Source: a virus | IMG/VR virus record: IMGVR_UViG_3300025771_000175 | Coordinates: 1 to 24,746 of that record | Length of the DNA stretch: 24,746 bases | Reading direction: 5' to 3' (one strand) | Shown here: positions 14,718 through 19,708 of the stretch, one piece after another | Numbering within the stretch: position 1 is the stretch's first letter | Layout of the letters: every line of letters starts with the position of its first letter | Position numbers and translations under genes: made by a program | The notes under the pieces: generated by a model | What the model saw: the letters and a program-made list of their open reading frames with translations, nothing else | What the model was told of the DNA's origin: nothing | Database searches by the model: none

Positions 14718-17197
14718 TAGCTTGACTCCACCTCGTATTCAATCGCCTGGATATGGAAAGGCGTTGGGTCTGGTACACTGATTGTTGGCATAACGTCTCG
14801 ATTCCAACCATTAACATCATATACGTCTGCTATTATGCCACTTAATGCTGTAGGGGCGCTATCTAAGGGCGTGGTTGGCGCAGAGCCAAACGTTCTGATC
14901 GGAACAGGGTTGCCGTCCACATGAACGCCATACGTCTCATAGACGCGCATATTCACTCGTATGATGCGCTTCAATCTCATCGCATTTTGCCCAGAACCCA
15001 TATTCGTATTTAATGGCATTGGTACTAATTCTGGTACAAAGTTTAAGCCCAATTCAATTTGAGAATAACCGATCTCGTTAGCGTCTAATTCAATCTGACC
15101 ACTCGCTACGGTTTTTGGACTAAGCACAATTCCATCACCGACAATCTGTACGGTCTCGCCCTCTAAATGGCTAAGACCTGTTATAACTGTTTGGGTAGGT
15201 GTTGGGCTTACTTTAATAGACGAGTCCATTAGATAAGAGAAATCCCAGCGCTCAACATACGATACGGTAGAGCCGTCAATCTCTCTTTCATTAACTACAT
15301 AGAATTCATCATCAACAACAGCGCCAGACTTCAATGATCCACTGGTAGTCCATTCTGTATAGCCGTTAATATCCTGAGAGCGCAAAGTATTTAGGATTGC
15401 CGCCCCGCCATCACTGTTAATGATGAATAGCCAGTTAGAATCTTCACTTTGAGTACCCGTTAACAAAGCTAGACCAATAGGCTGCTTGATTAGGTTAGAC
15501 GCTAGAACGGACTTATCCTGCGTTGTATAGGCATCCTCATTGAATGAGTAGATAAAGTCTCTTAATGTCTTGCCGTTGCGGTCGATAAATAGGGTAGAAC
15601 CGTCCACTTCCTGTACTTCAATGTTAGATGCACCGTGTGAAGTCTGTGGGGTAATCGCTACCGTACTTGGTGTTAATGGCTTAACTGTTACCGCAAACTC
15701 AGCGCCAGAAGTAAAGATTTGCAAAGTCCTGCCAGGGAATACATCAACAATGTCATTCAGCTTTCTTGACGAGATCGTTGCAAAGATTCCTTCATCGTCA
15801 TCGCCATCATCAATATCAAAGTCAAAGAACGAACCCGTCTTACTAGCAAACAGGCTTTGTCTCTTAGACTTAGTGCCGCCAATAACTAGCCGACTCTCAT
15901 AGAAACACGCAGTCTTAGGCCAGCCTCTAGTAGCAGACCATACGTCCTCTTTCCTTGGTGAGCCGCTTGCAGTCTTAACAAAGCCAACCGTCTTACTAGC
16001 CGTTCCACTGGTCGCAAATCCCGAATAAAGCTCAAAGTCTTTAGCTGACTCACCGCCTACGGTAATATCATACACACCCGCAGAAACATAGGAAACACTA
16101 ACGCCTGTATCGCCCATAACAGGCATTTCTTGAATGTTCTTCTGTATGTTAAATACAGTTGACTCTCTCTGATCTGCGTTAGCGTCACCAGCAAAAGTAA
16201 TGTTCTTAGATAACACGCCCTCAATGTCCACCTGAAACGTATCGCCAGCCACAAAAGACGTTAGCGTCATTCTTTGTACGTCATTGACGGGGGTGGGGCT
16301 TAGGGCATCGTTATAATCAAACTGCGGGACGTTTACGAAAGGTGCAAGGTCTAAGAACCAATCGGAGTCAGTGCCTAAGTTAACTAATCGACTAGGCGCG
16401 TAGTCCTCTTGAAACAACAGCATGACGTTCTCAACCTGAGTATCTCGAACATCTGGAATGGCAGCAGACTGCATTGCCATCTTAACATCAGCTACATAAG
16501 TATCTGGTGTTCTAATAATCCGAACGTTCTTGTCTGTTAAGATCAATAAATAATGTCGATCAGATTCTACGGAGAAGTCTAACAGCTTGACGTTAGATGC
16601 CGTTGCAGACTCATTAAATAGGTTAAAGTCAGATAATGTGACCTTAGCAGTACCTAAGTCTGTGGCGGTTGTTTTGACGATTCGCCAGTATCTTTTGGTG
16701 ACTCCTGCCTTGAATCGGAAGTCTTGTGCGCTCGGCCCAAGCAAAGGGATATCAACGAGCTTTGTCCAAGCCGACCCATCGTCAGAGTGTTCGATATCAA
16801 ACTCATCAGATGTACCAGACGTAAGTAGTATGCCCCTAACATCAACCACTTCAATATATTCTGCGCTGCCCAAATCCATTTGCGCCACAATATACGGGTT
16901 TGTCGTACTAATATTCGTTGTCGTGCTCGTAGACGTAGCGTCATCTTCATCGTCAATGTCTCCAGGTGTGCCCCCGTTAGGCATTGTCATAGTGCCTGTA
17001 AGACGCTCTAAGACGTTTAACGCTTGGTCTATATACTGAGTGCCAGCCCTACGCTTCATGCCGCCCTGTGGGACGATAACAAGGTTCTTAGCAACCTCTG
17101 CGCCTTGGTAGTATTGGTCGATATCTACCCGACCTTTTAATAAAGGGGATAGAGCGCCACTAACTAGGCTGGTTTGAAAGAATCTTGACTTAGCCAT
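14717..17197 (-). CDS. Tail tubular protein B (nozzle) with an inserted discoidin-like domain
   Basis: The 826-residue protein has family hallmarks: FQTSLVSGALSPLLKGRVDI and PQGGMKRRAGTQYI at the N-terminus, then GWPKTACFYESRLVIGGTKS and LFASKTGSFFDFD near the middle. It forms the distal nozzle of the short tail. Residues about 76-198 are an insert: a low-complexity Asp/Ser/Thr linker (DDEDDATSTSTTTNIST) followed by a beta-rich unit. That unit has YIEVVDVRGILLTSG, DIEHSDDGSAWTKLVDI and KRYWRIVKT, which resemble an F5/8 discoidin or galactose-binding fold. After it the nozzle sequence resumes (LLDFSVESDRHYLLIL). The insert could extend from the nozzle and bind sugars. The ATG overlaps the upstream stop (TGATG) behind GGAGG. 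Confidence 0.88.
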   Translation of the reverse strand: MAKSRFFQTSLVSGALSPLLKGRVDIDQYYQGAEVAKNLVIVPQGGMKRRAGTQYIDQALNVLERLTGTMTMPNGGTPGDIDDEDDATSTSTTTNISTTNPYIVAQMDLGSAEYIEVVDVRGILLTSGTSDEFDIEHSDDGSAWTKLVDIPLLGPSAQDFRFKAGVTKRYWRIVKTTATDLGTAKVTLSDFNLFNESATASNVKLLDFSVESDRHYLLILTDKNVRIIRTPDTYVADVKMAMQSAAIPDVRDTQVENVMLLFQEDYAPSRLVNLGTDSDWFLDLAPFVNVPQFDYNDALSPTPVNDVQRMTLTSFVAGDTFQVDIEGVLSKNITFAGDANADQRESTVFNIQKNIQEMPVMGDTGVSVSYVSAGVYDITVGGESAKDFELYSGFATSGTASKTVGFVKTASGSPRKEDVWSATRGWPKTACFYESRLVIGGTKSKRQSLFASKTGSFFDFDIDDGDDDEGIFATISSRKLNDIVDVFPGRTLQIFTSGAEFAVTVKPLTPSTVAITPQTSHGASNIEVQEVDGSTLFIDRNGKTLRDFIYSFNEDAYTTQDKSVLASNLIKQPIGLALLTGTQSEDSNWLFIINSDGGAAILNTLRSQDINGYTEWTTSGSLKSGAVVDDEFYVVNEREIDGSTVSYVERWDFSYLMDSSIKVSPTPTQTVITGLSHLEGETVQIVGDGIVLSPKTVASGQIELDANEIGYSQIELGLNFVPELVPMPLNTNMGSGQNAMRLKRIIRVNMRVYETYGVHVDGNPVPIRTFGSAPTTPLDSAPTALSGIIADVYDVNGWNRDVMPTISVPDPTPFHIQAIEYEVESS

Positions 17198-17850
17198 CAG
17201 ACCTCCATAAAGGTCAAATTCATCGAGAAAATGTCCACAACTAGAGAAGTTGTGCCATCTCCCTTAATCATTACATGAAACTCATCGCCCGTATTAATCT
17301 GAAATATGCCGTTAGATGAAGCAGAGCCACGCTTATTGGCAGACGTAAACGACCGCACAATAGACTGAGGGCTAATAACGTCATTGATAGATAGGGCTAT
17401 GGTTACGTCAGCAACCTTTTGTGAACTCATATCAACCGAACCAACAAACTGGAATAATCCACCAACACCAGTATAAGTCAGAGTATTATCGGCTAGAGTA
17501 AAGTCTCGCGCTGAACCAAGCGCCATGTTAGGTACTTCAGTATACGTTACACCATCGTCATTCAGAGGCAAAACTGTCTCTGTGCTCAAGTAGTAGTAAG
17601 CATACTCTCGGTCTAAAAAAGACGTTTTTGCGACCACCACGCTGTTTTTAGATACCGCTGTGACCTTGGCTGTGTAAACCTCAACCGAGTTATTAACAAT
17701 GATTAGGTCTTTAACCTGTAGCTTTGTGTACGCTTCGTTAAAATAGCCAGCGCCTAAAACTACTGTACGTTCATCCAGTGTTTCGTAAGTATAGATTCTG
17801 GGTGCGGGTGAGCTACCGCCAACGTGGGAAAAGCTCTCGTTATCAAACAT
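17197..17850 (-). CDS. Fibre-like virion protein with decoration-type N-terminus and possible C1q/TNF-like jelly roll
   Basis: Two parts can be seen in the 217 residues. The N-terminal about 75 (HVGGSSPAPRIYTYETLDE, GAGYFNEAYTKLQVKDLIIV) align motif for motif with the 85-residue protein at 18452-18709, so the two are likely paralogues in this part. The C-terminal about 110 (from PNMALGSARDFTLADNTLTY to the end) are all beta, with the QFVGSV, ASSNGIFQINTGDEFHVMI and NLTFMEV strands expected of a C1q/TNF-like jelly roll. That fold usually trimerises at fibre tips. It lies between tail tubular proteins A and B, so it may be a head or tail fibre. The fold call is by pattern only. Confidence 0.7.
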   Translation of the reverse strand: MFDNESFSHVGGSSPAPRIYTYETLDERTVVLGAGYFNEAYTKLQVKDLIIVNNSVEVYTAKVTAVSKNSVVVAKTSFLDREYAYYYLSTETVLPLNDDGVTYTEVPNMALGSARDFTLADNTLTYTGVGGLFQFVGSVDMSSQKVADVTIALSINDVISPQSIVRSFTSANKRGSASSNGIFQINTGDEFHVMIKGDGTTSLVVDIFSMNLTFMEV

Positions 17851-18418: not shown

Positions 18419-18443
18419 AGAATAGATGGGGGCCGAAGCCCCC
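18419..18443 (-). terminator. UUCG hairpin after the capsid unit (probable terminator or attenuator)
   Basis: On the minus strand GGGGGC, a TTCG loop and GCCCCC form a perfect six-pair GC stem with the very stable C(UUCG)G loop. It is followed by ATCTATTCT, a weak U-rich tail. It sits in the 44-base gap between the small head protein and tail tubular protein A, the same place as the T-phi terminator of T7 (just after the capsid gene). The weak tail suggests partial termination or 3'-end protection of the capsid message. Confidence 0.65.
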
Positions 18444-18451
18444 GATTGTGC

Positions 18452-18709
18452 TTATACGTTGCCTACAGCCGTACCAGAAGCCAAGTCAACTACACCAGCG
18501 CTATTAGAAATAACGAAGGATACAGTGACAGCAGGTGCGTCAGTATCAACAATCAGAACTACGTCACCAACGGTAAGCTCGGCGCTTGCGTTGTTGAAGA
18601 AGCCAGAACCAGCAACAGTTGCAGGTGCTTCAGTAGATGAGTAAACCCATACAGCGTTTGCATCACCAGAACCACCAATGCGTGAAAGACCGTCTCTTGA
18701 AAATGCCAT
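18452..18709 (-). CDS. Small head/decoration-type protein
   Basis: The 85-residue protein (MAFSRDGLSRIGGSGDANAV, TEAPATVAGSGFFNNASAEL, TVGDVVLIVDTD) is beta-rich, with no charged helices, signal or membrane segment. It follows the major capsid gene after 13 bases and shares its promoter, so it should be made in high amounts. Small proteins with GGS, W/Y-x-Y-x-T and F/YFNxAxxxLxVGD motifs next to capsid genes behave like capsid-surface or head-fibre-base proteins. The N-terminus of the 217-residue protein at 17197-17850 has the same motif order, suggesting that the two occupy related sites. A good AAGGAGA ribosome site precedes the ATG. Confidence 0.75.
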   Translation of the reverse strand: MAFSRDGLSRIGGSGDANAVWVYSSTEAPATVAGSGFFNNASAELTVGDVVLIVDTDAPAVTVSFVISNSAGVVDLASGTAVGNV

Positions 18710-19556: not shown

Positions 19557-19591
19557 GTGATAACCCTCAAAACGAGTAATTAATAAAAGTT

Positions 19592-19637
19592 TTGTAGGCT
19601 TTCGACTGAGTGCCCGACAGATTCGGTCAGTCTACAA
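19592..19637 (-). promoter_or_regulatory. Structured RNA element in the capsid-gene leader
   Basis: On the minus strand TTGTAG-ACTGA-CCGA (19637-19623, 15 continuous bases) can pair with TCGG (19617-19614), TCAGT (19609-19605) and CTACAA (19597-19592). The loop is ATCTG, and the 3' side carries bulges of 4 (GCAC) and 7 (CGAAAGC) bases. All 15 pairs are Watson-Crick. The element ends about 35 bases before the capsid ATG and downstream of the predicted promoter, so it would be in the leader RNA. AATCTG in and beside the loop can also pair with CAGATT at 19650-19645, giving a competing fold. A role in mRNA stability, RNase III processing or translation control is inferred. Confidence 0.6.
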
Positions 19638-19680
19638 CCTTAATAATCTGCCAGGCCTCAAAGGGGTATCCGACTACACT

Positions 19681-19708
19681 ATAATAACACTTGGTTATAA
19701 GAAATCAA
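19681..19708 (-). promoter_or_regulatory. Putative promoter for the capsid gene
   Basis: On the minus strand TTGATT (19708-19703, four of six consensus positions) is followed by 16 bases and TATTAT (19686-19681, five of six). It starts just after the scaffold stop and lies in the only long gap (153 bases) of the late gene block. Transcription would begin near 19674, giving a leader of about 118 bases before the capsid ATG. It would let the capsid and decoration genes be expressed above the rest of the late operon. Fit is good but not perfect. Confidence 0.55.

Follow-up and report, generated by a model that had tools for sequence, protein, structure and literature searches.

What does the leader in front of a phage capsid gene do, and can it govern how much capsid is made? 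The question is raised by the window, the whole stretch of 24,746 nucleotides of the IMG/VR virus record IMGVR_UViG_3300025771_000175 that was analysed here. Capsid protein is usually the most abundant late phage product, and a preliminary description had placed upstream of its gene a cis-acting RNA with two competing folds. Both folds were found to be evolutionarily kept, with compensatory changes in each, and the conservation and covariation in relatives that had been proposed as a check were both present.

Locus, relatives and start of the transcript

The features of the locus are given in Table 1. The capsid ATG (19556-19554, minus strand) stands where it had been described, as does the promoter upstream of the leader, which reads TTGATT-16-TATTAT with a TG extension.

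Table 1. Coordinates of the capsid gene, its promoter and the strands of its leader in the window
Feature	Position	Strand	Remark
Weak -35, TTGATT	19703-19708	(-)	Promoter reading
-10 box TATTAT with TG extension (TGTTATTAT)	19681-19686	(-)	Fixed spacing in relatives
P0 5' strand GTCGG, from predicted +1	19670-19674	(-)	Pairs with 19650-19654
P0 bulge and loop ATACCCCTTTGAGGC	19655-19669	(-)	ATACCC kept in nearly all relatives
P1 5' strand GCCTGGCAGATT	19645-19656	(-)	Bases 19650-19654 are also the P0 3' strand
P3 5' strand AGGTT, anti-anti-SD	19636-19640	(-)	Canonical pairing, one-sided changes only
P2 5' strand GACTGA	19627-19632	(-)	Compensatory change in L056
P2b 5' strand CCGA	19623-19626	(-)	Compensatory change in L062
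P1 3' strand AATCTGTCGGGC	19612-19623	(-)	TCGG 19614-19617 is also the P2b 3' strand
P2 3' strand TCAGTC	19604-19609	(-)	4-nt bulge GCAC (19610-19613) parts P2 from P2b
P3 3' strand AGCCT	19596-19600	(-)	Also start of the anti-SD strand
Anti-SD strand AGCCTACAAAAC	19589-19600	(-)	SD pairing probability 1.00 in the window's own sequence (L001)
SD-side strand GTTTTGAGGGTT	19562-19573	(-)	SD GAGG at 19565-19568
Capsid gene, 277 aa	18723-19556	(-)	PHROG 3437 major head protein, E 1.8e-50
Terminator-like hairpin, GC-rich, 3' of the 85-aa gene that follows the capsid gene	18428-18443	(-)	Consensus scan only

For comparative analysis, a search with the capsid protein gave at least 80 viral contigs at 87-100% identity. 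Capsid scans with several clade members and DNA pattern scans were combined into a set of 45 distinct leader versions, lying upstream of closely related capsids among the matches listed; the contigs are metagenomic and often fragments. When the capsids of L056, L069 and L104 or a looser pattern were used, nothing more divergent than L104 was found among the matches listed.

When the 45 leaders were aligned on the first base of the element, the motif TGnTATnnT ended 6 bases upstream of it in nearly every one, and the key positions of the extended -10 (T, G, T, A, T) were common to 41-43 of the 45. The 6-nt discriminator carried little information and its sequence was not conserved; conservation set in sharply at +1, which was a purine in all aligned leaders (n=45). 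From this fixed spacing and sharp onset, the RNA most likely starts at 19674 from a host-type sigma70 extended -10 promoter, and with this predicted +1 the element is most likely the literal 5' end of the capsid transcript. The predicted start lies upstream of 19592 and not downstream of it, a point on which the preliminary description had made its proposal depend. The whole element spans 19674 to the capsid Shine-Dalgarno (SD) sequence at 19565-19568, and the region described before is its middle. No upstream ORF was seen in the window leader.

The predicted start also bears on an RNase III or other processing or stability signal at the 5' end of the capsid mRNA, which had been suggested before and appears highly improbable. 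T7-like phages use RNase III sites, and stable irregular hairpins do stand at the mRNA 5' end. However, the transcript is predicted to begin at the element, so that no upstream RNA needs removal; the helices are short, interrupted and without a link to any nuclease, and the conserved competition with the SD would be left unexplained.

Since the terminator-like hairpin lies downstream of the 85-aa gene, this gene and the capsid gene may form a transcription unit of their own, closed by that hairpin. The 85-aa protein (18452-18709) and the N-terminal part of a 217-aa protein (17197-17850) both match PHROG 18004 (unknown function), which suggests a duplicated domain. On the opposite strand, 19668-19690 (+) reads CCGACTACACTATAATA and resembles a T7-type promoter; the sequence is not kept in relatives, and the likeness is therefore probably chance.

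Two conserved folds

Parsing of the 45 leaders into strands gave five conserved helices, P0, P1, P2b, P2 and P3. P0 joins +1 to +5 with +21 to +25, and P1 joins +21 to +25 plus flanks with a strand at about +52 to +63. In P2b the P1 loop pairs with the P1 3' strand and in P2 with UCAGUC, and P3 joins AGGUU with AACCU. Uninterrupted helices are short (4-12 bp). P0 is incompatible with P1, and P1 with P2b, because each couple shares one strand.

The 15-base arm on which the preliminary description had built its first fold (TTGTAGACTGACCGA, 19637-19623, minus strand) is complementary throughout to TCGG (19617-19614), TCAGT (19609-19605) and CTACAA (19597-19592), which are separated by bulges of 4 (GCAC) and 7 bases (CGAAAGC). 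All three segments exist, but the TTGTAG/CTACAA pairing is confined to the sub-clade of the window; CTACAA was rejected as a third conserved segment, and the register kept instead in all 45 leaders is that of P3, AGGTT/A(A,G)CCT in the window and its variants. The alternative CAGATT/AATCTG pairing was recovered as part of a 12-bp helix, GCCTGGCAGATT/AATCTGTCGGGC (19656-19645 with 19623-19612), and this helix is the fold of minimum energy. The region 19557-19680 folded at -38.3 kcal/mol, whereas its shuffled versions averaged -27.9 (z -3.22, with 0 of 200 shuffles as good), and the mean folding z across the leaders of the 45 relatives was -3.3.

Canonical pairs filled 225/225 cells in P0, 478/483 in P1 and 180/180 in P2b (45 leaders), and 269/270 in P2 and 225/225 in P3 by the segment-based count. 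The helices that exclude one another are thus all 99-100% canonical. P3 was 91.7% paired in the MAFFT alignment, in which a few rows were misplaced. Compensatory changes occur in P0 (G-C to A-U; G-U/A-U/G-C), in P1 (C-G to U-A; A-U to U-G), in P2b and in P2. In the L038 clade, a C to U change in the shared strand is matched by two G to A changes, one at +1 (P0) and one in the P1 3' strand. In L062 the P2b pairing CCGA/UCGG has become CCAA/UUGG, with P1 kept by wobble, and in L056 the P2 pairing CUGA/UCAG has become CUAA/UUAG (G-C to A-U). In P3 only one side of each pair varies, via G-U. The G-U pairs occur on the capsid-sense strand, so the conserved object is this RNA strand.

Substitution simulations were run on a tree built from the capsid gene. 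The observed pairing was reached in 0 of 400 simulations for P0, P1, P2b and P2, and for P3 in 4 or 34 of 400, depending on the transition rate. With one strand fixed and the other resimulated (2000 runs), it was reached 0 times for P1, 0-1 for P2b, 1-10 for P2 and 29-94 for P0. A stricter null that reused the observed types of change gave 22/500 for P0, 7/500 for P1, 3/500 for P2b, 1/500 for P2 and 500/500 for P3. Double changes on the same branch were few, with 1-3 per helix in P0, P1, P2b and P2 and none in P3. In a separate covariation count, both folds outscored each of the 500 shuffles and exceeded slid controls by far. These comparisons give good support to the two conserved folds; among the four helices with compensatory changes P0 is the least certain, given its 29-94 of 2000, and P3 is the least certain overall.

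It is very unlikely that one fold alone matters and the other is a by-product of short repeats (GUCGG twice, CUGAC twice). The repeats are real, and the support for P0 is moderate once the other strand is fixed; yet the P1-only and P2b columns vary in concert with those they pair with (0 and 0-1 of 2000 simulations), and the repeats are kept in step, as in the L038 clade with AUCGG twice. The loop CUGAC was rejected as an alternative to the P1 strand in pairing with the 5' GUCGG, since the clade starting with A changes along with the P1 strand and not with the loop. For a UACCC/GGGUA pairing, covariation was absent by eye. At its 5' end the RNA nearly repeats the P1 3' strand with its bulge (window 19670-19674 and 19614-19618), and in L104 the 5' strand GUCGGGCACUC is identical over 11 nt to the P1/P2 3' strand, which is consistent with a leader 5' end that mimics the P1 3' strand.

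The two folds had been described as unable to form together. This is strict for P0 against P1 and for P1 against P2b, which share strands, but P2 could in principle form together with the inner half of P1, giving a pseudoknot. A single static pseudoknot (inner P1 with P2 and P3), serving without rearrangement as a protein-binding operator like that of T4 gene 32, is quite unlikely. The strands of P2 and P3 are placed within the P1 loop and shortly downstream, which makes an H-type topology possible, and P1, P2 and P3 are all conserved. With full P1, however, a joining strand of 2-3 nt must span 10-12 bp, and P0 and P2b would be left unexplained, two helices that have strands in common with P1 and are no less conserved. 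The T4 gene 32 leader is a static pseudoknot that nucleates autogenous repression. Both are structured 5' leaders acting, by prediction for the capsid leader, on translation of an abundant phage protein; the T4 pseudoknot is static, whereas the capsid leader has two exclusive conserved folds.

Pairing of the ribosome-binding site and a predicted switch

A sequence complementary to the SD region follows the P3 3' strand. The probability of anti-SD:SD pairing exceeded 0.75 in 42 of the 45 leaders (not in L027, L064 and L074, which lack the pairing), with a mean of 0.91 against 0.58 when the spacer was shuffled. The paired extension differs by clade yet is kept (CAAAAC/GUUUUG, UAGAGU/ACUUUG). The effect was strongest with an extended helix, CCUaCAAAAC/GUUUUGAGG in the clade of the window and CCUUAGAGU/ACUUUGAGG in that of L015. 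In many leaders with the plain CCUC/GAGG core the spacer shuffle did as well or nearly as well, so their pairing is not independent evidence, and the AGG/CCU core is partly dictated by the SD itself. L012 and L013 are nearly the same over the first 79 nt and differ from the anti-SD to the start codon with the anti-SD pairing kept, which suggests that the downstream half was exchanged by recombination. Between anti-SD and SD, L045, L058, L061, L079 and L104 carry an extra hairpin (for example GUUUCAUGUGAAAC), and the L015 clade a GAGGC-loop-GCCUC hairpin.

When helices were imposed, the SD was unpaired with a mean of 0.46 in fold A (P0, P2 and P3) and 0.10 in fold B (P1). Its exposure was greater in fold A in 45/45 leaders; in L056, L079 and L090 the SD was largely paired in both folds. 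Fold B was the more stable by 1 to 15 kcal/mol (mean 5.5), and at the large gaps often seen (5-8 kcal/mol), few molecules may adopt fold A without a partner. In growing chains of L001, L015 and L038, the first 30-36 nt folded most stably as P0, which gave way to P1 as the best fold at about +60, a length at which P2 and P3 are not yet possible.

The preliminary description had left open whether stability, processing or translation is controlled. Translation, with a switch, is favoured here, because one of the two conserved competing folds can bury the capsid ribosome-binding site. The leader thus probably switches capsid production on and off. With a probability of roughly 0.6, the 5' leader of the capsid mRNA would be a bistable translational switch, off by default through P1 and turned on when P0 and P2 are stabilised. 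We infer translation as the regulated step, the direction of ON and OFF, the folding order, and the existence and identity of a trigger. Transcription from the sigma70-type extended -10 promoter would start the RNA at 19674, and the P0 5' hairpin could form first. As the P1 3' strand emerges, P1 would capture the P0 strand; the P3 3' strand, left free, would then pair with the SD and translation would be low (default OFF). A protein or small molecule, for instance, could hold P0 via the bulged helix modules, for which GUCGG-AUAC-YC in P0 and UCGG-GNAC-UCAG in P2 are candidates. With P0 held, P1 would be blocked and the P2b/P2/P3 hairpin would form, in which P3 would occupy the anti-SD strand and leave the SD exposed (ON).

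The same folding order bears on a ligand-free kinetic switch or timer, in which the fresh transcript would be translated in the P0 and P2 fold and then relax into P1 with the SD buried, limiting the capsid yield per mRNA. The hok and MS2 maturation-gene leaders are precedents, the strands follow one another in an order that suits stepwise strand displacement, and P0 does prevail early. Such a timer is nevertheless unlikely: P1 wins at about +60, ahead of P2 and P3, so that the leader is predicted to be OFF from the start, and neither the conserved unpaired AUACCC nor the GNAC bulge would be required.

Known RNAs and leaders of related phages

No Rfam family matched the element at gathering score, and no riboswitch family was among the matches; a search to E 10 gave only chance matches (best E 7.4-9), including a weak alignment to RAGATH-12 (E 7.4). 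GAUACC...GGCAG presumably resembles the synthetic theophylline aptamer, most closely only in the variant of the window itself. By DNA, the element had no homologue in annotated phages, where two short matches were chance, and a specific core pattern gave 7 matches in bacterial genomes with covariance-model scores near chance. The covariance model found one copy in the window and one in each of the 8 element-bearing related contigs searched, with no second copies in the window or related viral contigs; in MEP301-like, pelagiphage or bacterial loci it gave no convincing match.

As expected of a bistable leader, two mutually exclusive helices are both conserved and, computationally, one fold hides the SD and the other exposes it. 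The initiation region of lambda cIII mRNA also adopts either of two exclusive folds, of which one buries the ribosome-binding site and the other exposes it; that switch is situated around the start codon, with temperature, Mg2+ and RNase III playing a part. Both are phage mRNAs with exclusive folds around this site, but gene, sequence and phage are other, and the capsid leader is long and runs from the predicted +1. Translational riboswitches likewise have a strand that pairs with an upstream partner (here P3) or with the SD, and the conserved unpaired upstream bases of the capsid leader could bind a ligand, a suggestive likeness; those riboswitches serve metabolism, whereas a phage structural gene without an Rfam family match is concerned here. 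A compilation of candidate structured RNAs in viruses reportedly exists, and the capsid-leader motif may be listed there. Conserved structured RNAs of aquatic phages include manA, wcaG and PhotoRC-II of marine phages (PMC2864571) and a glutamine riboswitch in the OM43 phage Melnitz (PMC9004378). In contrast to the capsid leader, these accompany host-like metabolic or photosystem genes or tmRNA.

By capsid protein, the nearest isolates are OM43 phage MEP301 (45%) and Dunaliella-associated virus SI2 (43%), followed by Vibrio podoviruses (32-37%) and Pelagibacter phages including HTVC010P (about 26-31%). At the same place upstream of the capsid ATG, MEP301-like phages carry another leader, highly conserved, multi-stem and about 110 nt long, AAGGCAUACCG...CGACCCUU...GCUGGCGUAACCAGCAAGC...GGCCC...GGCAUACC (L295-L374 and L082). 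It begins near the promoter start, has several stems and conserved loops, and carries a GG-CAUA-CC / GG-C-CC module twice. Its stem C (GYNNN-CGUAA-NNNRC) was canonical in 271/285 cells with many pair types, and stem B nearly always, scored with the best spacer chosen; no Rfam family matched this leader at gathering score. Tentatively, and with considerable doubt, the capsid leader could belong to a new ligand- or protein-sensing RNA class for phage capsid synthesis, default-off and with two copies of one bulged-helix module as its sensor, of which the MEP301-like leader would carry a similar sensor in another architecture.

If the proposed switch is true, RNA-gated capsid synthesis would be a layer of control absent from the T7 textbook model, in a clade of widespread aquatic podoviruses whose capsids are related to those of pelagiphages and methylophages. 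The leader would then offer a compact natural switch open to testing, for which promoter, start, folds and readout are predicted, as well as a lead to what is sensed.
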